Origin: Kappaphycus alvarezii
Taxonomy: Eukaryota; Rhodophyta; Florideophyceae; Gigartinales; Solieriaceae
Reading direction: 5' to 3'
Assembly: GCA_002205965.3 (NCBI GenBank)
Contig: NADL03000480.1
Span: 310,001 to 374,000 of the forward strand
DNA: 64,000 nt
The position numbers were made by a program, and so were the translations under genes. Positions within the stretch are counted from its first letter, which is position 1, and each line of letters opens with the position of its first letter. A model generated the notes under the pieces. The model made no database searches. It was not told where the DNA came from and saw only the letters and a list, made by a program, of their open reading frames with translations. Below are positions 4,054-43,267 of this stretch, piece after piece.

Positions 4054-4568
4054 TGTTGCGATTATGCCCGTAAATCACCAAATACCCTGAAAGTATCCCT
4101 CCAGTAACCTGTACCAAGGATTTACACTGTAAGAAGACATCATTGCAACTTGTGCACCGTACTCACGCACCAGTTTAAAAGCATAATATCATACCTCTTT
4201 GTACCTAGCCAATGACATGGATCCATCATGGCTATCTCGCGTGGTTCTCGAAACATTTCGCACCCACCAATCAGCAACCACTTTATGCGTCCTTGCCAAT
4301 TGGACCAATGGGACTTTGCCATGATGTTTGTTGCTGTCTGTTATACTGATGGATGCTACATGAGCCTTCAGAACCTTGTAGTTTGATACCTCTGGGGTCG
4401 CTTTTTCTAGAATATCTTTGAATTCAGTACCGTTTAGTTACAATTTATCTCTGCTGGTGTTGAGTACATTTTCTATATAAACCCTGGTCTGATGTTCCGG
4501 CCTGTTTACCGGAAGCATTAACCAACAGCCCAACCATCGATTACCTTTTGTGCGCTCAACACCCCACA
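4054..4568 (+). repeat. Gypsy 5' LTR
   Basis: Starts TGTTGCGATTATGCCCG and ends near CCCCACA. It aligns with the 3' LTR at 10182-10694 with two single-base indels and only a few substitutions. Contains a TATA box (TATATAAA, about 4474). The right edge is uncertain by two bases (4566 or 4568). The near-identity of the LTRs implies recent insertion or later homogenisation. Confidence 0.93.
4473..4482 (+). promoter_or_regulatory. TATA box of Gypsy 5' LTR
   Basis: CTATATAAAC sits about 95 bp before the LTR end, as expected for the U3/R boundary of an LTR retrotransposon. The same motif recurs in the 3' LTR (about 10600) and in the LTR fragment at 50281. Transcription start is not directly visible. 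Confidence 0.6.
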
Positions 4569-4570
4569 TT

Positions 4571-4582
4571 TGGTAGCATCGC
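4571..4582 (+). other. Gypsy primer binding site (initiator tRNA-Met type)
   Basis: TGGTAGCATCGC lies two to four bases after the 5' LTR. Its complement would end GCTACCA, as the 3' ends of eukaryotic initiator tRNA-Met do, so minus-strand priming by that tRNA is likely. The same 12 bases follow the 5' LTR of Copia family 2 at 29896. Confidence 0.75.
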
Positions 4583-4622
4583 ATATCCGTTTGTCAGTAC
4601 TGCGAGTCCTTCCAATCCGACA

Positions 4623-4719
4623 GTAAGTTAAAATCTCTATTAGATTTGACGTTCTGCCCGATTGCAAGCAGAGACTAACATTTTGTTTTTTACTCTGATT
4701 CTTTTTGAATAACGCTCAG
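4623..4719 (+). other. Predicted leader intron that creates the ATG of the zinc-finger ORF
   Basis: A 97-nt candidate intron with donor GTAAGT (4623-4628), branch site ACTAAC (4674-4679), a T-rich tract and acceptor CAG (4717-4719). Joining A4622 to TG at 4720-4721 makes an ATG in frame with the 193-codon zinc-finger ORF. Unspliced, that frame has a TAA at 4710 and no ATG anywhere. The splice signals are seen; splicing itself is inferred. Confidence 0.7.
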
Positions 4720-5300
4720 TGCCGAAAAACAACACTTCCAGGGACCGCCCCTCGTCGCCGGACGAGTACAACGCAGAAGACTTACATTCGTTCTTCGCCG
4801 AAAATTGTCGGGAGCTGACAACGTTCGAGTTTGGAGTGGAGCCAAGAACACCCACCAGAATCGTGGTGGAGGAACCCAGGACACCAAGACCTTCCACTTT
4901 TTGCCTTCTCGAGGCTGTATCGCTACTCGCTCTACCGCCGATACCGAGAAGGCCCCCAGTCCCTCGCTCCAAACCGCAGAAGCCTAAGAAGACCCTACCG
5001 ATTCTCCCTGACGCGGCTTCCATCGTCATTCAGAGAACCGCCAACCACCGCATTCGTAAGAAGACCGGAAGGCCTCGCCTGACCAAGAACCCGCGACCGT
5101 CGCCCTTCCACTGCCGTCACTGTCAACTCACCTGCACAGGCCGAGTGCAGTATCACGAGCACCTCCGATCCCGCAAGCACCAGCACCGCGCCGATAAGAC
5201 GAGGCACATCTGCGAAATTTGCAAAATCGAAGTCCTAAGTAAGGCAGACCTTGAGCGCCACCGTCTTGGCCGCCGTTATCGAGAGACTGCCCGTCAGTAG
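4720..5300 (+). CDS. Accessory C2H2 zinc-finger protein in Gypsy leader
   Basis: An uninterrupted frame of about 193 codons between LTR and gag, more GC-rich than its surroundings. The N-terminal part is polar and acidic. Residues about 45-100 are rich in proline (several R-T-P and P-K-P repeats). A basic stretch follows with the motif A-N-H-R-I-R-K-K. Then come two C2H2 fingers with long histidine spacing: finger 1, C-x2-C-x12-H-x5-H (5112-5180); finger 2 the same (5211-5279), but its last His is Tyr (TAT at 5277). This spacing is typical of U1/JAZ/matrin-type fingers that bind double-stranded or structured nucleic acid. The start codon is predicted to come from splicing (intron 4623-4719). 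The role is unknown; nucleic-acid binding during transposition, or regulation, is plausible. A related ORF sits at the same place in the Copia element at 37173. Confidence 0.75.
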
Positions 5301-5575
5301 TTAAAATTTGAATAAATTTAGGGAAGAGGAAGCAAGAAAAACTCCAAAAGTTGCTTTCTCAACCGACTTCGTTTGTGCTGTGTTCAACCTCCCGCTGTGG
5401 CTACCTTACGAACTCGCTTTCCCCAGTTCCTTGCAGTAGGGCTTGTAAGCCCGTATCGCTGCCAGGTTCTAGACAGGAAAACAAACGTTCTGTAAAGCAT
5501 CGGAAGGAGGGCTACTATAGCACACCCGACGTGACTGACGTCAAACCCTTACGTCAGAGAAAACCAACTTTCCCA

Positions 5576-5660
5576 AGTTATCGACTGGGATTCGAACTCG
5601 AGACCTCTCACTGGTCTTTCGCTGGTCTAGCCAACTCGGCCACAGTGCATACCGATATTC
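5576..5660 (-). other. tRNA-like (Pol III promoter) segment in Gypsy leader
   Basis: On the minus strand, TGGCCGAGTTGG (5631-5642) is a perfect A box and AGTTCGAATCC (5588-5598) is a B box with one mismatch, 32 nt apart as in a tRNA gene. The acceptor strands do not pair, the T stem is weak and position 33 is not T, so it is not a working tRNA. A tRNA-derived SINE head or tRNA pseudogene between the zinc-finger ORF and gag is most likely; its limits and any tail are not resolved. Confidence 0.55.
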
Positions 5661-5739
5661 TTACTGGCCAATTTGAAAAATTCTATTTAAAAAAAAGAAA
5701 AAACCAAAACTACACATGTGACTTTTTCGACTAATAGGA

Positions 5740-6450
5740 CAAGACAATGTAAACTTCGGGCATTACTGTAGAGTCTCTGGCACAGGCTGTAAGCGAACTT
5801 CAACGACAGCTGTCAAAGGCTCATAAACAGATCCCGCACAACAGAACCAGCTCAATAACGCTGCTCACAAGGTGGGAGCTCTCGAGAATGAGCTTTTTTT
5901 CGTCAGGATCAATGCCGGTAGCTCAAATGGTCAAAAGAAACCAAGGACGCCCCTAAGAAGAAGAATAAGCCGGGATCATTCAGCGGAAAAGGGTCCTTCG
6001 GGAGCTGGTGCGTGCAGATGCAGAATTATCTTGGTGAAGCAGATGGACAAGCTACCATGAACATTGCACTAAGCTATCTCTCTGGAAATGCCCATGAGTG
6101 GTGGATGGTCCATTCCAAGAGCGCGCGGGGCAGGAGATGAAAACATGGAAGGAACTTAAGACTGCCCTTCTCAATCGCTTCGAGACGTTAAACAAGGAAA
6201 AAATCGCCCGAGACAAGCTGGCTCGCTGGAAACAAGTTAAAGACGTTACTGCGTTCAATGAAGATTTTAACAAAATATTGTTGGATATACCAGACATAGG
6301 AGTCAAAGATCAGGTTGATCGCTATTCACGCGGCCTGAAACCGTACATTTGGAAAGCCTTGTGCACGAAAGAATACTCTAAACTCTCCATTTGAATGGCA
6401 GATACGGGAAGAATTGAAGCTGCTTACAGGGTTCAGGGCCGTTAGGTAAC
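5740..6450 (+). pseudogene. Gypsy gag (Retrotrans_gag domain), frameshifted
   Basis: Capsid-type domain with typical chromovirus content. One frame (about 5990-6120) holds a stretch with a Y-L-S-G-N-A core followed by W-W, and another (6098-6394) the W-K-E-L-K-x-A-L-L-N-R-F motif through the Y-S-R-G-L-K-P region. At least three frame changes or stops (near 6110, 6393, 6444) break it. It would form the virus-like particle shell. The start codon is not clear: an ATG at 5746 is followed at once by TAA. Confidence 0.8.
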
Positions 6451-6513
6451 AACAAATCGAGTCCAAAATCGCTGAACGGAAGTTCAGGTACTGAAAATAG
6501 TGCTCCTGTACCC

Positions 6514-7083
6514 ATGGAAATTGGGAACGTGGAAATGAAACCGGGTATACAATCCTCAAATGTTAACTTACCGAAATTGGATCAAGCAGAACGTGAGAGA
6601 TGCATACGTGAAGGTCCTCTGCTTGAGATGCAGACAGAGAGGGCACATTGCAAAAAACTGCCCAAAAGCCCGAAGGAACTGACTGAAGGTCCTCAATCAG
6701 TTCTGGATGACAGAAATCTTATTGTTTCAACAATAAGATCACAGGAAGCATTTAGGGGAACACCAACCCCAACTTTCCAACGAAATCATAGAGTGCTTCT
6801 TATTGTTAAAGGAGTCATTTCCAATGGACAAGCAAAAATTCTCATCGACCTAGGTGGTGAGATCAATTTCCTCAGTGAATTGTTCTGCGATTACCATAAG
6901 ATTAAAACAAGAGAATCAGCAGAGCTTGCCGAAATGGCGAACGGTGCTAACCAGAAGTTGAGAGAAACAGCCGGTCCGGCAATCGTCCAAATAAAGAACT
7001 ACACAGAACCACTATACTTCGCCGTGAGCTCCCTCAAGAGATATGATGCAATCATAGGAGAAGGAATGGTGTGGAGCCCATAG
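6514..7083 (+). pseudogene. Gypsy gag C-terminus and aspartic protease
   Basis: In a neighbouring frame, a CCHC zinc knuckle (C-x2-C-x4-H-x4-C) lies at 6620-6661. The frame 6514-7083 then gives a retropepsin-like region. The catalytic triplet, normally D-S/T-G, reads D-L-G (Asp codon at 6847), followed by G-E-I-N-F-L where A-E-I-N-F-L is usual. The loss of the Ser/Thr would impair catalysis. Homology continues in another frame beyond 7083 to about 7160. The protease would cleave Gag-Pol inside the particle. Confidence 0.75.
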
Positions 7084-7159
7084 AACAATTATCGACTCTA
7101 CAAGCAATCAAGTTTCTTTCAACTACAAGGATGAAAATTACTCCGTCACTGCCAATGAA

Positions 7160-8240
7160 ATGACAAAGCACCCTTTCGTTTCTGCAAACTCAGTACTTAC
7201 TGATTTGGAGAAAAAATGTAGCACTTATGCTGTGCTAATTCGACCTTTAGACTCAAATTCAAATGTTCCAGATTCTTACCCAGAAGATATTCAAGGTGTA
7301 CTGAAAAAGTATACAGACGTTTTCCCGGAAAAACTTCCGAAGGGCCTTCCTCCGAAGCAAAAGTATGATTTCAAGATCGAATTGGAAAAAGATGCCAAGC
7401 CACAGAAAAAGGGTCTCTACAGACTTTCAGTAAAAGAAATGATGGAGCTTCGTAAACAAATAGATGATCTACTAGAGAGTGAATCATTAGACCAAGCAAA
7501 AGCCCCTGGGGAGCGCCAATACTCTTTGTAACGAAAAAGGACAGCGGTTTGTGTATGTGTATGGATTACAGAGCACTTAATCGGCTTACTGTAAAAAACA
7601 GCTACCCCCTGCCGCGCATCGATGATATCTTTGATCGACTTAAGGGAGCCAGGTACTTCTCGAAAATAGATCTGAGGATTGGTTACCATCAGATCAGACT
7701 GGAGGAATCTTCAATCCCTCTCACAGCGTTTCGAACCAGATACGGACATTTTGAATTTCTCGTACTACCTTTTGGATTGACCAACGCACCAGCAACTTTT
7801 ATGAATCTCATGAACGACATATTCAAAGATGTCCTGGATGTATTCGTTATCGTTTATTTAGATGACATTCTTATCTTCAGTAAGACACGGAAAGAACATT
7901 TAGAACACATTGATGTAGTACTAGAGATTCTTAGGAAGGAGAATCTGTTCGCAAAATTGTCGAAATGTGTCTTCGGTGTTAAAGAAGTCGAGTATCTTGG
8001 ACATGTAATCTGTCAAGAGGGAATCGCTGTGGATCCCAACAAGATAAAGGCAGTCATGTAATAGCCCTCACCAAAGAACAAGCAACAGCTTCAGTCATTC
8101 TTAGGACTAGTCAACTATTACAGAAGATTCATAAGAGGATGCTCATTGGTTGCTAAACCTCTTACAGAGCTGACGAAGGAAGAACGTTTCATTTCTGTGG
8201 ACAGATACTCAGGACAAATCATTCCAGACCTTGAAGAAAT
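7160..8240 (+). pseudogene. Gypsy reverse transcriptase
   Basis: Open frames 7160-7531 and 7549-8061 cover the RT domain. Visible are the entry region ending P-W-G-A-P (in a shifted frame at about 7480-7520), D-Y-R-A-L-N, L-P-R-I-D-D, the F-S-K-I-D-L catalytic Asp, L-P-F-G-L-T-N-A-P, and Y-L-D-D at 7855-7866. The thumb runs to Y-L-G-H. It is broken by an indel near 7484 and by consecutive TAA TAG codons at 8059-8064, where a Glu-Trp pair would be expected. The connection region continues to about 8240. The family synthesises cDNA from the element RNA. Confidence 0.9.
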
Positions 8241-8249
8241 CGTTATGCA

Positions 8250-8699
8250 GTGCCCCAGTCCTTAAAACTTTTGACTCTGAACTTCCAATATATGTCACTA
8301 CAGACGCCTCTCAGTACGCAATGGAGCTGTGTTGGAACAGGGGGATCCAAATCCAGAAGACCAGTTGCCTTTGCGTCTAGGACTTTGAATGATGCTGAGC
8401 AAAATTATGCCGCTCATGAGAGAGAGCTCTTGGCCATTGTAGAGTGCTTGAAATGGTGGAGAGCATACCTACACGGAAACTTTTTCACAGTTCGTTCTGA
8501 TCACTACCCTTTAAGATACCTCGAGACCCAGGACAATCTATCCCAAAGACAGGTTAGGTGGTTGGAAAGATTAGCGAACTTTGATTTCAAAATTATACCA
8601 TCTCCGGGAAAGCAAACATCGTTGCCGATGCCCTGTCAAGACAACCTCAGAATTATCCCTCACCTAAACATCGAAACAGAGAACTACTCAAGGAAGTGA
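8250..8699 (+). pseudogene. Gypsy RNase H
   Basis: Open frame containing the RNase H sequence usual for Ty3/Gypsy: R-P-V-A-F-A-S-R-T-L, N-Y-A-A-H-E-R-E-L-L-A-I-V (catalytic Glu region) and V-R-S-D-H-Y-P-L (catalytic Asp). The first catalytic strand (T-T-D-A-S) is in another frame at about 8290-8315, so one more frameshift lies before this ORF. The role is to degrade the RNA strand of the RNA:DNA hybrid. Confidence 0.85.
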
Positions 8700-8712
8700 T
8701 AACAAAGACATA

Positions 8713-9683
8713 CCTAGAATCGAACAATATATCCGTACCTATTTTGCGGATTCTGAAGTAGAAGATCTGGCCAAAGATTACAGGCTAGATGAAAACCTGA
8801 AAACCCAATACAAAGATCCAAAGGCACCTTTCGAAAAGAAAGGGTTGCTTTTACTAAGGAACGGAAAGATTTGCGTACCAGAAGGAAAATTTAAAGTCAA
8901 GCTATTACATGACTACCATTTAACTCCAAATACTGTACATTTGGGAATTTCAAAAACAATCAATAGAATATCACCGAAGTTTTACTGGAAAAACCTTCGT
9001 ACAGATGTACTTCGATACGTTCGTTCTTGCCACTGCCAAAGAGACAAAGCATCCAATCAGAAACCCGCAGGTCTTTTACAACCTCTTGATCCACCGAAAA
9101 CCAAATGGACTCACATAACGATGGACTTTATTAACCCCTTCCAAGGTCAACGGAAGGAAACAATGGCATCTTAACTGTCGTTGACAGATTATCAAAGATG
9201 ATCAGAATTATACCAACCAAGCCCAAAATAGATGCTCCTTCAACTGCCAGGCTGTTCAAGGATCATGTCTACAGAAACCACGGAATTCCGACGAATATCA
9301 TTTGTGATAGGGATGCTATTTTTATGAGCAAGTTTTGGAAGAGTCTGTTCCACCTTCTGGGTACCAAGATATCCCCTTCTTCAGCATATCACCCACAAAC
9401 AGATGGAAAATCTAAGGTTATGAACAGAAATCGAAGAAATGATCGTTCTTTTGTTAGCTTCGACAAGTCAGATTGGGACAAATACTTGATAGACTTCGAA
9501 GTTGCTTACAACTCATCTATTAATGCCACTACAACATTCTCTCCGTTCTTCCTCAATTATGGAATCCACCCTAGAACTGTCCCTTTGGACATACTCTCCA
9601 CAGAAAACCCTGCTGCGGCACAGTTCCTAAAAAACATGCAAGAGTCAATGAAAAAGCCCAAGAAAAATCAAAAAATCAAATAA
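8713..9683 (+). pseudogene. Gypsy integrase: H2C2 finger and catalytic core
   Basis: Open frames 8845-9174 and 9198-9683. The first holds the H2C2 zinc finger (His near D-Y-H, His in V-H-L-G, then C-H-C) and the first catalytic Asp in M-D-F-I. The second holds the second Asp in C-D-R-D-A and A-Y-H-P-Q-T-D-G. The third acidic residue, the Glu expected in the following helix, is Lys (AAG at 9414-9416), so the D-D-E triad is incomplete. The usual G-H-L-G of the finger reads V-H-L-G. A frameshift separates the two frames near 9180. The domain inserts cDNA into the genome. Confidence 0.9.
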
Positions 9684-9749
9684 ATCCACTGCCTTGTATG
9701 TAACAGAAGTAGAAGACCTTCTTCTTATAAAGTTGGTGACAAAGTCTGG

Positions 9750-10135
9750 TTGACCACAAAAAACATAGCTTTTGAAGATGGTGCAGGATCTCGAAAACTG
9801 AACGCAAAGTTTTGTGGTCCATTTCAAATATCTGAGGATATAAACGGAGTTACGTACCATTTAAATCTTTCCCAGCCAATGATCGACAGGGGAATTCACA
9901 ATGCTTTCCATGCTAGTCTCTTTAACCGTACTTTGAAGATGAATTCTATCGCCAAATTCCGCCGCCACCACCTATACAGGTTCAAGATGGACATAAAGAA
10001 TACGAAGTCGAATCAATTCTCAGTCACAAGAAACAATACGGAAAAACAAAATATCTCATTAAATGGAAAGGATATGCAGATCACGAGAACTCATGGCTAT
10101 CAGAAAATGAACTGAAAAATTGTCAAGATATGCCA
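9750..10135 (+). pseudogene. Gypsy integrase C-terminus with chromodomain
   Basis: Frame 9750-9950 gives the integrase C-terminal region (K-F-C-G-P-F-Q-I and N-A-F-H-A-S-L). After a shift near 9955, another frame reads a proline run and then a chromodomain at about 9998-10125, with E-Y-E-V-E-S-I-L, Y-L-I-K-W-K-G-Y and N-S-W aromatic-cage-type positions. Chromodomains of chromoviruses bind modified histone tails and steer integration to heterochromatin. The frameshift separates it from the rest of integrase here. Confidence 0.85.
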
Positions 10136-10170
10136 TACGAATACAAGAATCGGGGCGATTCTTCTTCGTA

Positions 10171-10181
10171 CGGGGGAGTGA
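10171..10181 (+). other. Gypsy polypurine tract
   Basis: CGGGGGAGTGA lies directly before the 3' LTR start (TGTTGCG at 10182), the expected place for the plus-strand primer. Confidence 0.75.
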
Positions 10182-10694
10182 TGTTGCGATTATGCCCGTA
10201 AATCACCAAATACCCTGAAAGTATCCCTCCAGTAACCTGTACCAGGATTTACACTGTAAGAAGACATCATTGCAACTTGTGCACCGTACTCACGCACCAG
10301 TTTAAAAGCATAATATCATACCTCTTTGTACCTAGCCAATGACATGGATCCATCATGGCTATCTCGCGTGGTTCTCGAAACATTTCGCACCCACCAATCA
10401 GCAACCACTTTATGCGTCCTTGCCAATTGGACCAATGGGACTTTGCCATGATGTTTGTTGCTGTCTGTTATACTGATGGATGCTACATGAGCCTTCAGAA
10501 CCTTGTAGTTTGATACCTCTGGGTCGCTTTTTCTAGAATATCTTTGAATTCAGTACCGTTTAGTTACAATTTATCTCTGCTGGTGTTGAGTACATTTTCT
10601 ATATAAACCCTGGTCTGATGTTCCGGCCTGTTTACCGGAAGCATCAACCAACAGTTCAACCATCGATTACCTTTTGTGCGCTCAACACACCACA
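10182..10694 (+). repeat. Gypsy 3' LTR
   Basis: About 513 bp, nearly identical to the 5' LTR. Ends near ACACCACA, after which Copia copy A RNase H sequence resumes. The exact right edge is 10692 or 10694. Confidence 0.93.
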
Positions 10695-12035: not shown

Positions 12036-12409
12036 GGTTGAAAGCAATATTCCAGAATTCAAATGTAGCCATCAGCTGATATCTTTCTCTTGCTGTTTTT
12101 CGCAACTACCTGTTTGAATTGGTTTGGCTCATTTGGATTTGTTTGTTTTGTGATATTGCTGTTTGCTATCCGTTTGGCTCGGTTTGGCTTGATCTGGCTA
12201 GGTTGTTTTACTTGGAAATAGGATTAAGGATCAATGATATATCTTTACACTAGTTTCGGATCGTTATTGTTTGGTCTTCGCTTGGCTCTGTTCTGCTGAT
12301 GGAAAATATTTCGGTGCATTCTTGTAATAATTTGAGCCTTTCTGTTTCAAGATGTTGCTTTCCTTGATCCCATGGCTATTATGAGTATCATTGTGGGTAT
12401 TTATTCCTA

Positions 12410-12490
12410 GTAAGTTAACCCTTAGTTGTATTGCAGGTAAAAAAAATGTAGTATACTGATAAGTGAGTTACCAGTTTCACCATTTCGGAG
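12410..12490 (+). other. Leader intron remnant of Copia copy C
   Basis: Donor GTAAGT at 12410 follows an A (12409), and an AG acceptor at 12489-12490 is followed by TG, the same arrangement as in copy B. The resulting ATG would now run into a stop after two codons, as expected for a decayed copy. Confidence 0.45.
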
Positions 12491-12783
12491 TGACTTAGGG
12501 AACGTTTTTGTTTCATTTTTGACTCTGAAAAGGAACATAGCGAGGCTCCTGTGCTCACTGACGACCAGGCGGTTAGTGTTAGTGAGAACGTCCTTGTTGA
12601 AAATTGTACCATCCCGCTTCAGAACTCTGGTAAAAATCTTTCCTACGTACAAATTGCACCAGTCGTCGATCTAGAAATATTACAGCTCGCCAATAGTACT
12701 TATATTCCCACATATTTATCGCGTACTAACCCTCAACGAATTCAAAAGCTCTCTTCAACCCTCCATACCCGTCTGCAGCCTTA
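12491..12783 (+). pseudogene. Decayed zinc-finger leader ORF of Copia copy C
   Basis: Aligns with the N-terminal half of the copy B leader ORF (37173 onward): the sequence around 12540-12600 matches 37225-37310. A 77-codon frame survives at 12551-12781, but it is frame-shifted and has no fingers. Confidence 0.5.
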
Positions 12784-12899
12784 AACATCCGCCCACTTGA
12801 TGTGTAATCCAGTTCCTTTCAGCTACAACCGATCAAAGAAGAGCTTCCACACCATATATTCCACGTTCCACATGACAATATCAGGGGAAAAAAGAAGAG

Positions 12900-14660
12900 G
12901 AACCTGAAAATGGTTTTTGGAGTTATTCAATGGTAAGTTTTCATCAGAGTTGTAACTGAAGGTTCATCAGAAAGGAAAGTCATATATTTGTGAGGTATGA
13001 AAGCCGTAAACCCCGACTATTTTTCGTTGCGGCTTGTTCAAGGTCACCGATCAAATCAAAAGCGAGAACAGCTGCTACAGTATGAAGAATAGAAACGTAA
13101 ATAACAAGGGGATTCGCTTACCCCTTTGTTAAGTATAACTACTTACCTTCAATGACACCTTCTTACAACACGGTGAACAAGAATTGCACCGATAAGGTAT
13201 GGATATCACAAAACCTCGGTAATTGAGATTTATCTCCCCTATTTTAACCCGCACTCTACGATAAATTCCAAAGGAGAAGCTTTACTGTTGTTTCACTTGA
13301 CTGCATTCGAAGCTCCCATCATGCGCACAAAACAAATTCTAAACGTTACTGTGATTTCAAAGCGTATAGTTAAATTTCATTCAACGCAGACCCCAACTTT
13401 TGGGTACAGATGCGATACTCGGCCTTTGCAAATATATTACAGTCAAAATACTACACAGTACCCGTTTTTTCGGGTCCAGCGAAATTCGTCAGACTTTTCA
13501 TAATTACCTGAATTTGGAAAGACTTTAGAAATGCAACATCTGAAGAATATACCCATCTAATTGGAAATTTCGTCTTTCTTTGTCAGCTGGAACATAATAA
13601 AAGAGGAGCGTTTGCTATAGCCTCAAGCCCGAGGAGATATAAATTAATAAATAAATTCACCTTCTCCATAATAATTTTTGCTGTTTTAATGATTCTAAAG
13701 TTGCTCATTTACTTGGTACTCGTTTCAAATACTCGAAAAAACTTACTGGATACCTGGTAAGGGTATTCATGGATAATTATACAAGTAACTTTATGCCGCA
13801 CGAGACTAGTACCTTAATAGCAACACGAACCTGCAACACTTCCTTAATTTTTTTGATGGCTCAGAAAAGTTGCCTTACCGTGAGCATATCGAAGGACATT
13901 GTGAATCATTTGCAGAATTGACATTTAAAAAGCAGGAAAGGTTAAAATATTTCTACTCGTCAAAATAAAGCTTGGAAACGTCTGTGAAGCTTGAGGCTAA
14001 ACTTTAGAAACTCAAGCAAGCGCTCCAATATGTATGATTTGTTGGAAGAACCGATAGACGGAATAAAACAGCTTTGTCTACAAGGTACTCTACAGCACAG
14101 ATCGGAGGAAGGAGGAGATAAGGTAGAGTACCTATAAAAAGCCGTAACTAGTGCATCCTGGGCAAAGGCATCTTTCTCAAATGCATTACATGAATTTCTG
14201 ACAACATTTATTTATTTCCATTCTATTTGGCTCACCAATCAAGAATGCAAACTTACCTCCCACACTCTTGGAGAATCTTTGTTGAGACCGAACGACACTC
14301 CAACTATTCCTTGAATGTATTTCAAACAAGAAACAAATGGCAAACCACCTAAGCTCGCTTCGGGATTTTTTGCCTTCACATAACATCACGATCGCAATGA
14401 ACGAGGCAGAAATTCAAAATTATACGATACATAAACACCTGGAAAGTCTTCTGTTGATAGTTTTGGAAAATTTGGCCCTTTTAAAAAAAGTGGAGACAAA
14501 AATCATTTTATTCGAGATTTTTCAAAGAAGGTTATTTCTTGAATAACTTCTGTAAAGCTTTGAGAAGGTATCCTGATCATTGGAATTAGAATATCTTCAA
14601 GCTGTGTTAAAAAGCACACGAGGCTATGTTCAGTGATGACGAGGATGTTCAGGATCAATT
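12900..14660 (+). pseudogene. Copia copy C gag remnant
   Basis: Blocks at about 13690-13965 and 14080-14320 align with gag of copy B (38370-38610 and 38750-38930), and a CCHC-knuckle remnant lies near 14490-14520. Numerous stops and frameshifts. The open frame on the minus strand at 14186-14389 is a shadow of this. Confidence 0.65.
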
Positions 14661-34937: not shown

Positions 34938-36045
34938 CGGAATATACCTGCAGATGTCGACTGAAACTGAAATGATTAAACTTGAACTTCTTATCCATGT
35001 TTTTTTCATTTAAGTGTGTTTATGATTTCTTACCTGAATGAGTGTGAACGGATTGGTTTCCTGTGATTACATTTTTTGAGAACGATTGAAAAATTTGAGT
35101 CCTACGAGGATATTCATGTAGAGTAATTGCACTGAATCTGAGACTTTAAAGGGTGGTACAGCTTAGCATCATCAGAATGCAAGCGTATTGCATTGGGACC
35201 GAGGCTGTGAATTTGGTGATATAGCTTGGAATCTTGCTGGTAAAAGTGTGTACGCAACATTCCTGGGTGATGAATATCGATGAATGCAGCATGCGAGTCT
35301 TAAGTTTCGCGAGCCTGATAGGCATTGATGCAAAGATTACGTAAAGTTCATTCTGAAGCTAATGCAATAGTCTAGCAGAGAATCAAACGGTTACAGAGTA
35401 CCAGATAAGCGTTTACCAGACGCTAATAAAGACGCAGTAGCCCGAAGTTGTTCACTTGTGAGAGAGGACAGCCCAGAGAATGTGCTGAGCATCTGGCCTC
35501 CCCACAAAGTGTGATATATATCATTAATCCATGATTGAATTCTGATTTGAACTTAAGTACCAGAAACATGCAACACAGTACAGTGTTTGCGCAGCTTGAG
35601 CAAATTATTTCACCATTTGGTACTGTCCTTCGGTGTACAGCACTGCAAACATAGTACTACTGTGTTCAGTAAAGTTCTGTATAGTGTATTCTAGATAAGG
35701 TACTATACATTCCTATATTTGGCATACACGGTAAAATGCATTTGCCGCCTTATTAAATGAGTGCATTACAAAACAAAATCTCCCGTATGGTAATAATTTC
35801 AATGGTTAAAACAGTCAGATATGCTGCTCACTGTCTTAAAATGCGGAATAAAACATCCTTTGTAATCTTACTTTTGGTCGCCGGTGGGTATTATTGACAA
35901 CTCAAAAATACAAGCCCCGGGTTTACTCATGTAGTCGTGCATTTTAAGTAACATTCAACACAAAGAAATTGTCATTGACCGTTTTAGCTAGGGAAGGGGA
36001 ACCAGAGTTGGATGAAAACACAGAAAATCTCACTGACTAGGAGTG
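34938..36045. other. No recognisable gene
   Basis: AT-rich, with TACAGTA-type words at about 35570-35720. No open frame of note. Confidence 0.45.
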
Positions 36046-36124
36046 AAAGAAATCCCATTCCAGTACTGGAGCTAGTATATACATTATTAGGGTAAGCAAG
36101 GACAGAATGGGTGCTTTTGAAAAA
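36046..36124 (+). repeat. 79-bp flank duplicated inside the 3' LTR
   Basis: The 79 bp before the 5' LTR recur, essentially unchanged, at 42783-42861, inside the 3' LTR. Confidence 0.9.
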
Positions 36125-36553
36125 TGTTAGAATTAGAAGATGTTTTTGTCAGCCGGACAATGCTAACCGACAGTAGTTCCAATTCATTACGTATGATGAA
36201 TAGAATTGATATATTTTAGATTAATTTACTGTGCTTTATACTGTCAGTTAGGCTATGCAACTGTACTGTATTTTGTCAGCTAGTCTACAGTATACTGTCA
36301 GCTAGTCTACAGTATACTCCTGACCTGGGCACCTCAGGCAGGGTAATCTACAGTATAAAGAGAGTGATGGTGTTGCATCCCGCACACCATCACCAACAAC
36401 ATTATCAAACAACATCAAACACCCGAACCACGCTCCTCACCCTCAGCAGTAAGCTGACCGAAAATACCCGCGGGAACACCGTAAGTGTCCCCCTCAACTA
36501 AGGCGCCAGAGTAGCGCTTAAAGGGACGCACATTCGCGCCCCCCCGCTCAACA
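36125..36553 (+). repeat. Copia copy B 5' LTR
   Basis: Starts TGTTAGAATTAGAAGATG and ends about GCTCAACA. Carries a 22-bp tandem duplication (36275-36318, GTCAGCTAGTCTACAGTATACT twice) that the 3' LTR has only once. The rest is almost identical to the 3' LTR. The right edge is inferred from the 3' LTR and copy A. Confidence 0.8.
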
Positions 36554-36655
36554 GCGGGGCGAATCAACATTCCGGAATTTAACTTTCGCCCTCCCCGCTC
36601 TGCTGACTTGAATCCTATTGCCCTCCCACTGCTGCTTTGGAAACTCTTGCTTCTT

Positions 36656-36755
36656 CTCTGTTGTTTGGTGGTACGGTTGGTCAGTGTTGTCTCTGTTGTT
36701 TGGTGGTACGGTTGGTCAGTGTTGTCTCTGTTGTTTGGTGGTACGGTTGGTCAGT
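36656..36755 (+). repeat. 35-bp tandem repeat, three units, in Copia leader
   Basis: Three head-to-tail units starting CTCTGTTGTTTGGTGGTACG at 36656, 36691 and 36726. The T/G-rich leader makes long open frames on both strands here (36618-37056) that are not genes. Confidence 0.9.
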
Positions 36756-37100
36756 GGTAACTATTCTAGCCCTTTTTTGTCTTGGTGCTGGTATCAGTTC
36801 TGGTTTCGCTTTCGCTTTTGGTCTTGGTATTTGCAGCTTGGTCTCTGTTCTGGTCTGGTGCTGTCGCATTCGCTTGGGTCTGTCTACTCCTACGCTGTGC
36901 CTGGTTGTGGTCTGGCTGTGGTTCTACGCGCTCTTGGTACTGGTTGGGAATCTACTTGGCTCGCTGGTTGTGGTTGGCTACTTTGTTCTTGGAAGCTGTT
37001 GCTACATTTCTTTAACCGTTTGTGCCTTTTTTGTTTTAAGCTCTAGCTTGCTTTGATCACCTAGCTGTTCTAGGTATCACTGCAGGGTATCTTATAGCTA

Positions 37101-37172
37101 GTAAGGTAACCTTAGCTTTATTGCAGGTAAACAAAAGGTATCTAACATACTGACCAGTGGGTTTCTACATAG
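37101..37172 (+). other. Predicted leader intron creating the ATG of the zinc-finger ORF
   Basis: 72-nt candidate intron with donor GTAAGG (37101), branch site TCTAAC (37141-37146) and acceptor TAG (37170-37172). Joining A37100 to TG at 37173-37174 makes an ATG in frame with the leader ORF. Same design as the Gypsy leader intron at 4623-4719 and the remnant at 12410-12490. Confidence 0.65.
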
Positions 37173-37869
37173 TGTCTACGCTACGTGAACACCTGGAGGA
37201 CGTCTTCGGTTCAGAGCTTGACTCTGACGAGGAACGGAACGTGGCCCCTGCCCTCATCGATCACGAGGCAGTGAGCGCCGCGGAGGAAGTACCGGGAGAA
37301 CGTTCTTTCTCCCCTACGTCAACGCCTGGTGACTATATCCTCTCCGCGCCGGCAACGCCGGTAGTAAATTTAGACACTGCCCCCTCCCTTCCGGAGGACC
37401 TGTCACCGCGGCTTCCTCTTCTCGTACTCCGCCTCCTCCCGCATCGCTTTCTACCGCTGCCTATCCTCCTCCTCCTCCACACCAACCGTCTCGAATTACA
37501 AGGCTCCCAGTCCCTACCACGACGCCTGAAGCTCCGCGCGCCCGTGCTTCTAGCTCTCGTCAGCTGAGGCCGATAGAAGAAGGGCTTTCGCACTACATCT
37601 ACCGCGTAGCGAACGACCGCATCAGGAAGAAAAAGAAGGGCAAGACACGTCAAGCCCATTGCGAGACTTGCGACCGCAATTTTTCATCTCACCTGCCCGT
37701 CCACAAGAAAGGTAAGGACCACATATAAAAGGTCTGGAAACTCGAAAACCCGAGGGGTTTCCACTTCGAGTTGTGCAATATTACCATCTACAACAAGCCT
37801 GACGCCGATCGTCATATTCTCACCAAGAAGCACGTCAAGAACGAACGACTCCGCTTAGGACTTCTTTAA
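37173..37869 (+). pseudogene. Accessory C2H2 zinc-finger ORF in Copia leader
   Basis: After the predicted spliced ATG, the first frame (to 37567) starts with an acidic region (many D/E in the first 50 codons). After a frameshift near 37395, the other frame is proline-rich and reaches Y-R-V-A-N-D-R-I-R-K-K, close to A-N-H-R-I-R-K-K of the Gypsy ORF. Finger 1, C-x2-C-x10-H-x5-H, lies at 37660-37722 and is followed by a TAA (37726). Finger 2 at 37765-37833 has its first Cys changed to Phe (TTC) but keeps C-x12-H-x5-H. The frame ends at 37869. So the layout matches the Gypsy leader protein: acidic, proline-rich, basic, two long-spaced fingers. Function unknown; now broken. Confidence 0.7.
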
Positions 37870-37948
37870 ATAGTTCCAACCCCCCCTAATACACCCTAAA
37901 GACTAAATTCCTCTATCATCAGGAACCGTTGAAAAGGGACAACTCAAG

Positions 37949-39245
37949 ATGGTCACTCTGGAGTATATCCAGAAATGCCTTAACGCATATAAACCAATTT
38001 CCCCATCACATTGCAACGTTAAAGCTGCTCTTTCTCTTTACATAAATGCCGACCCGCAACCTTCGCATGAAGATGCGATAATTGGCCTTCGCGAAGATCT
38101 CCCCGTGGAAATCTTTTACAACACAGAATTTATTTCTGGTCCTGCGGTACTGTTCAGGCTTCTCCGCGACTAATTGCAACTACAAGGGCTGGAGTACACT
38201 CAGCATCCAGAAAATTCGCGTATTTTTTGGGGAATCCCATCAATGCTTTATCGGTCGGAACAGGATAAGAACGAAGCATATGCCGTACTCGCTAGTGCGA
38301 AAAGACATAATGAAGTACATTCAACCTCTCAAGTTATTGAGAAATCTCGCTATGCTGACGATTCGAGGGTTGCTCACAACCTTGCAACTCATTTCAAATA
38401 CGCGGAAAAGTTTACAGGTAAACTTGGTGAGGATATCAACGAATACATATCCAACTACCTCGATGCCACCACAGATTATGAACTCCCTAACGATAAGACG
38501 TTGCAATACTTCCATAACGTTTTCGATGGTGATGCGAAACGGTTCTACCGTGAGCATGTCTCTGGGCGCTGTGAAATGTTTTCGGAAGCGGTAGCTATTA
38601 TGAAGGAAGAATACAATAGTTCTACCCGTCAGAACAGAATTCGTAAACAACTTCAAAGCTTAAGACTTTCCGCTGTAATCGAAAGCAAGCGTTGTACTGT
38701 GCCTGAGGCATTGGAAGAACTAAGGGAGAAATCACCAAATTTGCTCCGCAAGGTCCCCCGCAGCACAGGTCTGAGGAAGACAAAGTCGAGTACCTCTATA
38801 AGGCTGTCATTGGTGCGCCCTGGGCTAAAACATCAATCGCAAATGCTCTATCGGCAAAACCCCAGTGGAATTTTCAACAGCTGTACACTTCTCTTGAATC
38901 AAGTTGGTTGATAAATCAAGAAGAGATTGAAAGAAACAGAGAGATTCCAAAGCTCCTGGTCGTTCGGAACCCTCATTGAGACCGAACGCACCTCCGACAA
39001 TCCCGAATATTCCTGGTCTCTACTTCAACCACGGAACATATGGTAAGCCCCGTAAACCAGGATCGCGGTCGTCTGCTCCCGCGTCATATCTACGCCGTCA
39101 AGAACAATCCAATCGTTCCAATTGCTATCGTAAGGATGCACCCGGCAAAAATGGTCTTGACCGCTTCGAAATGTTCGCCGGTGTAACAATTGTGGAGACA
39201 AAAATCATTTCATTCGAGAATGCCCTATGCCTCAGAATGTCATGA
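37949..39245 (+). pseudogene. Copia copy B gag with CCHC zinc knuckle
   Basis: ATG at 37949. The frame runs to a single in-frame TAA (38171-38173), then continues in the same frame to about 38735. After a frameshift the conserved reading passes into another frame (E-E-D-K-V-E-Y-L-Y-K-A-V, then S-W-L-I-N-Q-E-E). A CCHC knuckle, C-x2-C-x4-H-x4-C, lies at 39182-39223 in a further frame. Gag would package the element RNA. Matching remnants in copies A and C show that this is the family's gag. Confidence 0.8.
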
Positions 39246-39539
39246 ATAATGTCAGCAACGCGTTATGCAGAAACCAGGTCGTGCTCAGCAAATCCTCTTC
39301 GAACTATGTCAACAAGTCGAAGATGCCATTTTAGTGATAGTGAGGACGCAGAAGATCCGTTCAACGACACTGAGGAGAAAATTGACTGCTACAATGAAGA
39401 TGAAGGAAATAATGTCCCCAAAGAGCAAAAATCCCAGTTACGGCTGAAAATTTTCACAATGACATCATGGGATCCTATACAGAGAGCTTTGATGTAGATT
39501 TTGGTCCTAAAAATTTTCTTTAAGGAACAGTAAATCACC

Positions 39540-40096
39540 CTTCCGTATGAAAGATTTCTCATTCGGTACTGCTCTCCAGAAAAGTAGGACTCCATCTAGA
39601 GTCGATATAAGTTCTAACTTCAGTCGACGTATCCAATTCAACCAAAAACACATACTTCCCCATGATGTTTTCTTGACTGATGCAGAAACGGTTGCCTTCC
39701 ACAGAAAACTGAGCCTGAAAGGGCAAACGGAATGGCAAGGGGCATGCATTGACTCTGGTGCTCAAAGAACAGTCATTGGTCTTCAGCAAGCCCGTGCGTA
39801 TTGTAGATTAATGGGTAATAAATTCAAGATGAAAAAAAGCAGAAACCTATACAGGTTTGGACAACACGTTCAGCGTGCTATGGCTCGATTGGTATTCTGA
39901 TCCCTCTGCCCACATCTCCTATATCTTTGCAGGTTGATGTCGTCAATTCAGATATGCCATTCTTGCTTGGACTTGACACACTTGACAGGATACAGATTTA
40001 TTTCAACAACGTGGAAAACACTATGTGTAATCCAGTCCTGCAATGGAAGATGCCTGTTGTTCGCAAAAATGGTCATGCTTACCTTCTATGGAACCA
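39540..40096 (+). pseudogene. Copia copy B aspartic protease
   Basis: Frame 39547-39897 contains A-C-I-D-S-G-A-Q-R-T-V-I-G, with the catalytic D-S-G intact (Asp codon 39751-39753). After a frameshift near 39898 it continues in another frame with M-P-F-L-L-G-L-D-T-L-D, the conserved second half of Copia proteases. Confidence 0.85.
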
Positions 40097-41235
40097 AAGT
40101 GTCATCAACTTTACCCATAGCGAGCTGACTAAACTCCATCGAGGTTTCCATCACCCTTCCACTGAAAAATTATTGAATCTTCTCAAAAAGGCCCGATCGG
40201 AAGAGTGTGATGCTAATACGAAACAAATCCTCGAAAAAATTTCGCGACATTGCGATACATGTCAACGTCTGGGTCCTACTCCCATTCGCTTCAAGGTATC
40301 CATGCAAGATACAGATGAACTGTTTTTGGTGACGAACTATCTCTAGATTTAATGTTTATCAACAATCAACCAGTCCTCCATGTTATCGATACAGCCACTC
40401 ATTTTTCAAGCGCCGTTTTCTTAGACCCGAGCTCAGGATACAATCAGAGTGTTGAAGAATCTGGCTTGCTTTTCTTGAGGCCTGGTGTCTAAAGTACTCT
40501 GGATACCCTAATCAGATTCGGACCGACGCAGGATCAGTATTTAACTCTCCCCGATGGAAAGACATCTTGAATGGATGTGGAATCAAACTTAGAATTTCTG
40601 TGTTGAAGCCCATAACTCTCTCGGTAAGGGGAACGACTTCATGCTCCGCTACGCCGTATCTTTCGAAAGGTTCATCGAATGTACCCCCACATCAGAAAGG
40701 AGCTTCTCCTCGAGATTGCTAACAAAGCAATGAATGACACCATTGGAGAAAATGGTTTAGTCCCTTCATTTCTGGTATTTGGAATCCAACCGAGGTTCCC
40801 AGTTTTAAACTCAAAACTACCCCAGCAAAGTGAACGCATGAAAATTATTGCCGATGCCATGATGGAAAATAAAACTATCATTGCAGAAAGACGCATTACA
40901 ACTGCGTTAAGTAGTAATGTCCCTTCTGCTTCGGACAGAGTTTACTATCCAGGTGACGAAGTTCTCATCTTCAGAGAGAAAGAGAAGGAATGGATAGGCT
41001 TATACAGTTATCGATTTCCATGACAAAATTGTTCATGTTCAAAGGGGAAATTCACCGATTAAACGTTTCAACACACAACAAGCGAAACCGTACTTTCGCG
41101 AAATTAGGGAAGAAGTTGTCGACCCTTCGAATTCTCCACCCCCTCTGAATTCTATCAAACTATGTTGAAACCATTCCGTTCTCAAAAAACCCCTAGTCCC
41201 CTCTTCTCTACTCATCTTACAGAAATTATTCATCC
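40097..41235 (+). pseudogene. Copia copy B integrase
   Basis: The zinc-binding H-x11... region begins at L-H-R-G-F-H-H-P-S (about 40137) and ends C-D-T-C (40251-40262). The core follows in shifted frames: L-D-L-M-F-I (first Asp), H-V-I-D-T-A-T-H-F-S, R-T-D-A-G-S (second Asp, about 40525), V-E-A-H-N-S (Glu, about 40605), then frame 40679-41020 with F-G-I-Q-P-R-F-P. At least three frame changes occur. Confidence 0.8.
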
Positions 41236-42048
41236 CAAAGATCCACGCACAGCTGAGTTCGGTCCAGAAACGAAAGGAAATCATGGGACTGATTGAACAT
41301 GGCACATGGAAAGTAGTATGCAAGGATGAAGTACCATCTAACGCAAATGTTCTAGGTGAAGGTTTGTACTCGCCATCAAAGATTCTGGTACAAATCGTGA
41401 AGCGTGGAAAGCTAGATTCGTCGTACAAGGTCATAGGGATAAAATGAAAGAATTTCTTGTCCATGACACTAGCACTGCTCGTCAACATTCGATCAGAATA
41501 CTAGTTGGACTTGCATCTATCTTCGGCTTCAAACTCTTCTCAACGGATGTTACAAAGCATATCTGCAAAGCGCCGAGAAACTCCTTAGAGACATCTATGT
41601 AAAACCGACAAAGGAGTTTGAGCTTGGTCCTGATGCAATGCGTAAGCTTCTTAAGCCCCTCTACGGACTCCTTGACAGTGGTGATTACTGGGGAAGAGCA
41701 ATTTACGAACATTTAAGATCCGATCTTGGAATGGAATCTACAACTAATGACGGATCATTCTTCTTTACGGTAATTGATAAGAAGCTTTCTGGCCTTTGTG
41801 TAACCTATGTCGACGATTTACTTCAAGCTGGAAATGAGCACTTTGAAAAGTTCTCAAGGAAAACCGAAAATCGTTTCAAGTGTAAACGTAGGGAGTACGA
41901 TAACATCCAGTTCTCTGGAGCGCAAATCGAAAGAAAACAATTTGGTTCGAAGTGCATCAATCCAACAACATACAGAGGCTCAAATTACTTCCCAATGATG
42001 TCCCTTTTAGTTCGTATAAATCACAGAAGGCTAAACTGGCTTGAATAG
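41236..42048 (+). pseudogene. Copia copy B reverse transcriptase
   Basis: The frame before 41500 holds W-K-A-R-F-V-V-Q-G-H-R-D; a frame change near 41550 breaks S-T-D-V-T-K-A-Y-L-Q-S (catalytic Asp). Frame 41638-42045 gives K-P-L-Y-G-L-L-D-S-G-D and Y-V-D-D at 41806-41817. Another break follows at about 42000-42100. Confidence 0.9.
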
Positions 42049-42181
42049 CGTACACGAGGCCTGAATTTCATTTCGGGTCGCCCAAGCCGCTCAACTTACG
42101 GAAGACGTATTCAAAAGAGATCCGCAGAACCATATCAAAAGGATCAATCTAGCCTTAAAGGTCGTCAGAAATGACACCTCT

Positions 42182-42727
42182 ATGCGACTGAAGTTTCCGA
42201 AGCTTGATTTGAAATCACTCTACTTTCGTGTTTACTCCGATGCATCATTTGCTACAAATATCGACGGATCATCACAGCTTGGATACATTATTTTCTTGGT
42301 AGATGAAACTGACAAGTGTCAACCGCTTTACTGGTCATCTCAGAAATCGAAACGTGTCACGAAGTCCGTACTTGGCAGTGAAGTTATGGCATTAGCTGAT
42401 GCATTCGATATGTCCTACGCATTGAAACATGACTTACAGAAAATGTTATTAAGACCTGTTCCTATCACCATGTTTACGGATAGCTTGTCTCTTTTCGATG
42501 TCATTACTAGGGCAACTAAGACTAGTGAGAAACATCTCATGATAGATATTGCTACTGTTAAGAATTCTTACAAGTCGAAAGAACTCCAGAACATCAACTT
42601 TATTCGCTCTGCGTTCAACCCTGCTGACGCTCTAACAAAATTCAAAAGTGACGCAATTCTACACCGCATCATCCGAGATGGTCGCATTAGTCATCCAATT
42701 GAGCAATGGATTGATAGAGAAAGCTAA
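42182..42727 (+). CDS. Copia copy B RNase H, open segment
   Basis: A 181-codon segment, uninterrupted, with the Copia RNase H catalytic positions: Y-S-D-A-S-F-A (Asp), G-S-E-V-M-A-L-A-D-A (Glu) and M-F-T-D-S-L-S-L-F-D (Asp), followed by N-P-A-D-A-L-T-K near the end. It is the C-terminal part of the polyprotein, not an independent gene. The best-preserved domain in the window. Confidence 0.85.
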   Translation: MRLKFPKLDLKSLYFRVYSDASFATNIDGSSQLGYIIFLVDETDKCQPLYWSSQKSKRVTKSVLGSEVMALADAFDMSYALKHDLQKMLLRPVPITMFTDSLSLFDVITRATKTSEKHLMIDIATVKNSYKSKELQNINFIRSAFNPADALTKFKSDAILHRIIRDGRISHPIEQWIDRES

Positions 42728-42762
42728 ATTCGTTTGGTTCAAACGAACAAAGAGAGTGGGAA

Positions 42763-43267
42763 TGTTAGAATTAGAAGATGTCAAAGAAATCCCATTCCAG
42801 TACTGGAGCTAGTATATACATTATTAGGGTAAGCAAGGACAGAATGGGTGCTTTTGAAAAATGTTAGAATTAGAAGATGTTTTTGTCAGCCGGACAATGC
42901 TAACCGACAGTAGTTCCAATTCATTACGTATGATGAATAGAATTGATATATTTTAGATTAATTTACTGTGCTTTATACTGTCAGTTAGGCTATGCAACTG
43001 TACTGCATTTTGTCAGCTAGTCTACAGTATACTCCTGACCTGAGCACCTCAGGCAGGGTAATCTACAGTATAAAGAGAGTGATGGTGTTGCATCCCGCAC
43101 ACCATCACCAACAACATTATCAAACAACATCAAACACCCGAACCACGCTCCTCACCCTCAGCAGTAAGCTGACCGAAAATACCCGCGGTAACACCGTAAG
43201 TGTCCCCCTCAACTAAGGCGCCAGAGTAGCGTTTAAAGGACGCACATTCGCGCGCCCCCCCACAACA
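42763..43267 (+). repeat. Copia copy B 3' LTR, recombinant
   Basis: After a polypurine tract (AGAGAGTGGGAA) it begins TGTTAGAATTAGAAGATG (42763-42780), then TC, then 79 bp of the sequence that lies upstream of the 5' LTR (42783-42861), then a second TGTTAGAATTAGAAGATG (42862) and the rest of the LTR. Copy A's LTR has no such insert. The right end is near CACAACA. Confidence 0.85.

Follow-up and report, generated by a model that had tools for sequence, protein, structure and literature searches.

Regulators made by splicing are a textbook feature of complex retroviruses, and HIV Rev couples unspliced RNA to export. Among LTR retrotransposons, the one splice-made regulator that we met in the literature covered, most of it outside the subscription journals, is CERV of Cer1, a Gypsy/Ty3 element of Caenorhabditis elegans. 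CERV is an extra protein produced from a spliced mRNA and is needed for export of the unspliced genomic RNA (PMC10309623, in part; sources so marked are cited for the portions available). Its ORF occupies the position of env and has no obvious homology outside Caenorhabditis (PMC10309623, in part), and the main text of that paper nowhere uses the terms "start codon", "AUG" or "leader". The plant Ty3/Gypsy element Ogre carries a 550-codon ORF of unknown function in the interval between LTR and gag; by 2005, introns upstream of gag were unreported in LTR retroelements, Ogre included (PMC1142308, in part). In EVD, an Arabidopsis Ty1/Copia element, splicing of one primary transcript (shGAG) raises Gag output (PMC8892269, in part), and the extra ORFs of plant elements are described between pol and the 3' LTR (PMC7264820, in part).

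We analysed a 64,000-nucleotide stretch of Kappaphycus alvarezii DNA, hereafter the window, which sits in a 336 Mb assembly and contains a Copia and a Gypsy element, each with a zinc-finger ORF between its 5' LTR and gag. As with CERV, the product would be an extra protein of an LTR element made from spliced RNA (PMC10309623, in part). HIV Rev and Tat are likewise accessory regulators, although their proteins, positions and splicing differ (named in PMC10309623 and PMC7264820, both in part). Ogre shares the placement of its ORF between LTR and gag, but no upstream intron was known there by 2005 (PMC1142308, in part). As in EVD, splicing would pick between two protein outputs; however, the spliced EVD RNA gives more Gag, whereas here it would give a zinc-finger protein in place of Gag (PMC8892269, in part). 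In the titles and abstract openings covered, mostly outside the subscription literature, we found neither a leader zinc-finger gene nor a splice-created start in an LTR element. The proposed switch is unusually bare in its logic and readable from DNA: an ATG-free leader, an intron of 72-97 nt, and a start codon that would be present in spliced RNA only. Annotation based on ATG is blind to such genes, and ATG-free leaders combined with the pattern A/GT...AG/TG offer a simple screen for hidden genes in other genomes.

Leader organization of the Copia and Gypsy elements

The Copia element (36043-43267, forward strand, as for all features below unless noted) was delimited by its LTR pair, 36043..36553 and 42780..43267, with 93.9% identity over 511 columns, and by a reverse transcriptase fragment of the RVT_2 type (41473..42045; E 4.4e-6, below the Pfam cut-off, in a broken copy). 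No integrase was matched by Pfam in the four longer Copia ORF pieces scanned. A TATAAA lies at 36354 of the 5' LTR and the last LTR ATG at 36367; the next ATG is at 37949, leaving an ATG-free leader at 36370..37948. Within it, the splice signals read as the earlier note had described them: A37100 is followed by GTAAGG, TCTAAC occupies 37141-37146, and TAG (37170-37172) is followed directly by TG. Removal of this putative 72-nt intron (37101..37172) would join A37100 to TG37173 as ATG and open a frame reading STLREHLEDVFGSE... in the window copy. The leader ORF (37173..37869) contains VANDRIRKKKK and two zinc fingers. Its basic motif, ANDRIRKKKK (37609..37638), resembles a nuclear localization signal by inspection and recurs in the Gypsy leader. 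This ORF is interrupted in the window copy, by a change of frame near 37411 and a TAA at 37726. Finger 1 (CETC...H...H, 37660..37722) falls two residues short of its length in open copies, and in finger 2 (37765..37833) another residue takes the place of the first Cys (FELC). The region 37949..38911, beginning at the first ATG beyond the leader, is called gag by position, and its frame is interrupted by a stop near 38171; no Pfam gag match was obtained in the scanned Copia and Gypsy pieces.

Several smaller features of this element were also recorded. A 22-nt unit (36274-36318) is present twice in the 5' LTR but once in the 3' LTR, and a unit of about 35 nt (CTCTGTTGTTTGGTGGTACGG..., 36656-36757) occurs three times in the window leader and once in copy L005. 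Inside the intron, TTGCAG/GTAAAC (37121-37132) resembles a joined acceptor-donor pair, whose AG/GT is kept, as judged by eye, in 7 of 12 divergent loci.

The Gypsy element (4054-10694) is bounded by LTRs at 4054..4568, starting TGTTGCG and ending CCCCACA, and 10182..10694 (98.8% over 515 columns). Its pol pieces (7483..9680) encode, in order, an RVT_1-type reverse transcriptase (7483-8058), RNase H (8235-8696) and integrase (rve, 9135-9680; E 5.7e-6, below the Pfam cut-off). The 5' LTR has a TATA at 4474 and its last ATG at 4492, and the ATG-free leader extends over 4495..5715. Here A4622 precedes GTAAGT, the 97-nt intron (4623..4719, GTAAGT...GACTAAC...CAG) ends in CAG at 4717-4719, and TG follows at 4720, so that A4622 and TG4720 together form ATG. 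The ORF at 4720..5300 is open, with 192 codons after the spliced ATG, and encodes fingers of the zf-met type, although the last His of finger 2 is replaced by Tyr. Neither the Copia nor the Gypsy leader ORF has an ATG of its own in frame after the TG; the joined A and TG supply one. In the window Gypsy copy, a stop follows directly after both of the first ATGs (+996 and +1027), and the gag start of this copy is therefore broken. Just upstream of the element, the fragment 3948-4049 is 75% identical to a 3' part of Copia (42301-42402).

On neither strand of the window is there an ATG-free run longer than these two leaders, of 1582 nt for Copia (36367-37948) and 1224 nt for Gypsy (4492-5715); the next runs measure 395 nt on the forward and 521 nt on the reverse strand. 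Each extends from just after the TATA box, to the gag start in Copia and to about 30 nt from it in Gypsy. Of all trinucleotides, ATG alone is missing from 36525-37948 and 4569-5715, while CAT, its reverse complement, is found there 16 and 10 times; none of 1000 dinucleotide-preserving shuffles of either leader was free of ATG. Since the last LTR ATG lies only 13 nt (Copia) or 18 nt (Gypsy) past the TATA box, transcription starting about 30 nt past the box would give an RNA without any ATG before gag. In Gypsy loci L043, L052 and L081, the first ATG beyond the leader (+1024, +1024 and +1004 from the TG) opens the presumed gag (METSGITVESLAQAV...; METSGITVESL...). A second Gypsy type, type B, is looser in this respect, since five of its loci (L074, L075, L076, L078, L080) share an in-frame ATG within the ORF at +380; its context, CCTCGAATGAC, is weaker by the usual rules of start context than that of the L074 gag, AGGACAATGGA. 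Inside each ORF alone, avoidance of ATG beyond what protein and codon usage impose was weak (fractions of 0.028 to 0.41 in synonymous shuffles).

Relationship of the leader proteins

The earlier note had proposed a leader gene with a spliced start common to elements of two superfamilies, to be given up if the finger pair and RIRKK motif were no more alike than chance allows. Such a gene is supported, and by shuffling, BLASTP and profile comparison the likeness exceeds chance. BLASTP of the Copia protein L007 against the Gypsy ORF gave 29% identity over 94 columns, with an E value of 7e-9 that applies to a single comparison. We then compared Copia with Gypsy types A and B over 5000 shuffles in which all Cys and His were held fixed. 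The score of the module, that is the basic flank together with the fingers, was reached in 0 (A) and 2 (B) shuffles, that of the fingers alone in 0 and 5, and that of the flank alone (AN.RIRK) in 2 and 12. For the acidic, proline-rich N-terminal parts no relation could be demonstrated, since 689 and 332 shuffles reached their score, and a reading of their similarity as homologous was rejected; the common order of parts noted earlier therefore stands as a description and, for the N-terminus, fails as homology by this test. A profile built from Gypsy sequences only scored Copia at 25.6 bits (bias 11.5), or 22.9 with another set of rows. The best score of this profile among 177,635 sequences of solved structures (PDB) was 12.7 bits, and no RNA-binding protein was found in that search. 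By these sequence measures, the finger module and its basic flank are common to the Copia and Gypsy leader proteins. At the DNA level, the two leaders share short matches only (best 27 nt, E 0.001), and the LTR pieces compared have no motif of 10 nt or more in common.

The fingers had been described as long-spaced; their spacing, C-x2-C-x12-H-x5-H, is instead the ordinary one of the zf-met/JAZ (U1-like) type. Against Pfam, L007 passed both zf-C2H2_jaz (31.9 bits, cut-off 22.6) and zf-met (29.8, cut-off 21.2), as did the type A Gypsy protein L043 (zf-met 46.1, jaz 27.3). The type B protein L074 passed zf-met (46.5) with jaz below cut-off (19.4), and the divergent Copia protein L085 passed jaz (22.8) with zf-met below cut-off (17.6). 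The best solved match of a joint Copia-Gypsy profile was the RNA-binding protein ZFa (1zu1, E 2.8e-4), followed by weaker matches to Snu23, Bud20, ZNF622, Prp11 and ZNF346; the list also includes DNA-binding fingers (ZNF692, BCL11A and others). ZFa, ZNF346, Snu23 and Bud20, as zf-met/zf-C2H2_jaz proteins, have the finger spacing of the leader proteins, and the likeness to them is limited to the finger module. A search of IMG/VR for relatives of the Copia leader protein returned six stretches fitting the pattern, none of them confirmed, and scans of the window with Rfam at the gathering threshold and for tRNA returned nothing.

Conservation, splicing and exchange of the leader gene

Leader ORFs are present in many other family members, as the earlier reading had required. 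Protein and DNA searches of the genome, which give lower bounds, found at least 150 Gypsy and at least 162 Copia leader matches; candidate element copies in the two leader searches numbered 2086 and 7084. The Copia set comprised 40 leader copies, including that of the window. AG/TG is retained in 36 (the exceptions are L033, L038, L039 and L040) and a donor A/GTAAG at 71-73 nt in 36 (none in L028, L034 and L038, and only another GTAAG in L020). An open frame of 232-233 codons is found in 12 of the 40, and 25 are free of ATG over the 576 nt before the donor (less in L014), the intron and the stretch up to gag. Conservation of splice sites among these young copies was set aside as uninformative, every column being kept in 35-40 of 40. 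Copies L010, L015, L016, L022 and L023 differ from L007 by 0-1 substitutions and yet carry single-base deletions, which suggests indel errors of assembly rather than mutation. Since copies with 0-4 substitutions differ by single-base indels, some broken frames may be assembly errors, perhaps in part that of the window Copia copy.

The Gypsy set of 41 loci, including the window copy, ranges from 62 to 100% protein identity to it. AG/TG is retained in 39 loci (L064 counted by eye; lost in L077, not resolved in L079), the donor in all except L060, L066 and L067 (38 of 41), and the ORF is open over at least 185 codons in 38. Separately, on the minus strand of G000:C827 (330115-336652), three Gypsy leader ORF copies equal to the query in score and identity form a tandem array spaced by about 2,974 bp, an arrangement unlike placement by retrotransposition.

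Twelve divergent Copia loci were picked from the genome match list. Both donor and acceptor are present only in L085 and L086, and only L085 has an ATG-free leader, of about 1,190 nt. L082 has a donor with TT in place of TG, L083 has an open ORF with neither splice signal, and the other divergent loci look decayed. A second Copia lineage (L085, L086, L089 and L093, with one change in L088) has the acceptor TTCTTAG/TG and the same A/TG start, and the Copia rule rests on two lineages, the window family and that of L085. Within the window, a further Copia leader, copy C (12409..13126), contains 15 ATGs within 12080-13350. The earlier note held that copy C keeps both donor and AG-TG. The donor is there (A12409/GTAAGT); the AG/TG at 12489-12492, however, falls inside the stretch that aligns with the ORF (from 12479) and would read ATG ACT TAG. 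Copy C is a decayed relic without an equivalent acceptor, and was rejected as a third working example.

Evidence that the Gypsy intron is removed came from a genome search with a 27-nt exon-junction pattern, allowing at most 3 mismatches. This returned two matches (L094 and L095), and the reversed-pattern control returned none. Aligned to the intron-bearing L043, L094 falls into two blocks whose break, 1410 to 1508, is the exact intron. Past an unrelated flank, its homology begins at the first LTR bases (TGTTGCGATTATG), and it has a real ATG with 196 codons open; a complete LTR ahead of an intron-less leader is the expected product of reverse-transcribing spliced RNA. In L095, a type B copy, the alignment is interrupted at these intron ends too, with 103 nt of recognizable upstream leader and a frame open over 127 codons. 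These two exact intron-loss copies indicate that spliced element RNA encodes the Gypsy leader protein. The acceptor pattern was found with the intron at 227 places, so that intron-less copies make up 2 of 229, each found once. This rarity would fit a fate of intron-less copies as dead ends, owing to the ORF that then precedes gag. The Copia junction pattern had no genome match, as against 76 intron-bearing acceptors; at the Gypsy rate about 0.7 junction copies would be expected, and the zero therefore neither counts against nor proves splicing in Copia. A splice switch is thus well supported by genomic copies in Gypsy, and likely in Copia.

Substitutions were counted by the method of Nei and Gojobori. 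Type A L043 and type B L074 differ with dS 1.15 and dN 0.16, a dN/dS of 0.14 (0.09 in the fingers; Fisher p 4e-23), and Copia L007 and L085 with dS 0.455 and dN 0.161, a dN/dS of 0.35 (p 2.5e-6). Higher ratios in other pairs, up to 0.74 (L085-L086) and 0.71 (L007-L082) in Copia and 0.55 (L078-L080, fingers 1.17) in Gypsy, are as expected when individual copies in decay are set against each other; pairs that are very close carry no information (L043-L041 0.50, L007-L002 1.35). The leader ORF evolves as a protein gene.

The surroundings of the diverged ORFs of L043 and L074 behave differently. From -180 to the TG, all 179 compared positions agree with one gap, and the preceding window agrees at 52 of 60. 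Within the ORF, agreement drops to 35-42 of 60 in each window between +60 and +360 (49-55 of 60 in the fingers). It stands at 46 of 59 in the window following the ORF and reaches 59-60 of 60 at +780, a level kept up into the gag start. That leader, intron and gag start are nearly identical while the enclosed ORFs differ at a dS of about 1.15 demonstrates, at the level of alignment, a cassette exchange of the leader ORF between types A and B of Gypsy. The exchange of leaders between elements put forward earlier thus holds within Gypsy. A swap there makes exchange between superfamilies a live route as well: the leader gene may have passed between Gypsy and Copia, or a host gene may have been captured twice, the other origin put forward earlier. 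The related Copia and Gypsy forms suggest that accessory genes can cross superfamilies.

A proposed leader-encoded switch and its alternatives

We consider it probable that the leader encodes a switch in which unspliced RNA yields Gag-Pol and spliced RNA yields a nuclear RNA-binding regulator that favours the unspliced form. Transcription would begin about 30 nt past the TATA box of the 5' LTR. On unspliced RNA, which would double as the element genome, scanning ribosomes would meet no ATG before gag and would reach the gag ATG to make Gag-Pol. Removal of the 72-97 nt leader intron would instead fuse A and TG, giving the RNA a new first ATG from which the zinc-finger protein would be made. This protein, with its acidic, proline-rich N-terminus, RIRKK motif and two U1/JAZ-type fingers, would enter the nucleus, bind the RNA of its own element, and favour the unspliced form by export or by protection from splicing, like Rev or Cer1 CERV. 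By analogy with CERV, the combination of U1/JAZ fingers, basic motif and splice-dependent start makes action on unspliced RNA, as a nuclear RNA-binding regulator, the most likely role of the leader protein. A broader claim, for which we judge the case evenly balanced, is that of a mobile regulatory module which resides in LTR elements of two superfamilies in a single host and moves between elements as a cassette. Its start would be created by splicing within an ATG-free leader of 1.2-1.6 kb, and that leader would direct synthesis of Gag-Pol or, alternatively, of a Rev-like finger protein; copies derived from spliced RNA, having lost the switch, would leave no detectable descendants.

It is very improbable that the ATG-free leaders and splice signals are incidental and the ORF either a passenger in decay or a compositional artefact. 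The broken ORF of the window Copia copy, the 28 of 40 Copia copies without a full open frame and the 10 of 12 divergent Copia loci without donor or acceptor could all be read in that way. The leader ORFs are, however, under selection at the protein level, ATG is the sole trinucleotide missing from both leaders, and donor and AG/TG persist in 38 and 39 of the 41 Gypsy loci, whose protein identity goes as low as 62%; for Gypsy, selection together with the two exact intron-loss copies refutes this explanation.

The other alternatives keep the switch and assign the protein another task. C2H2 pairs are frequent in transcription factors, and the protein might activate transcription from its own LTR in the manner of Tat or Tax, the acidic N-terminus activating and the fingers binding LTR DNA. 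Acidic N-terminal segments with hydrophobic pairs are seen by inspection in both families (LEDVF, LQSFF), DNA-binding fingers appear among the weak matches of the joint profile, and the Copia 5' LTR contains a 22-nt unit twice. This role nevertheless seems unlikely to us, as the fingers are of the zf-met/JAZ type with an RNA-binding protein as the best solved match of the joint profile, the N-terminal parts lack demonstrable homology, and no 10-mer is common to the two LTR pieces compared. Less probable still is a role in suppressing host RNA silencing through binding of double-stranded RNA, with cassette exchange as the mark of an arms race. Pfam describes the jaz finger as binding double-stranded RNA, ZFa is an RNA-binding protein, and the ORFs of types A and B are deeply diverged on a near-identical leader and gag start; the low dN/dS between L043 and L074, 0.14 overall and 0.09 in the fingers, is unlike fast adaptive change.
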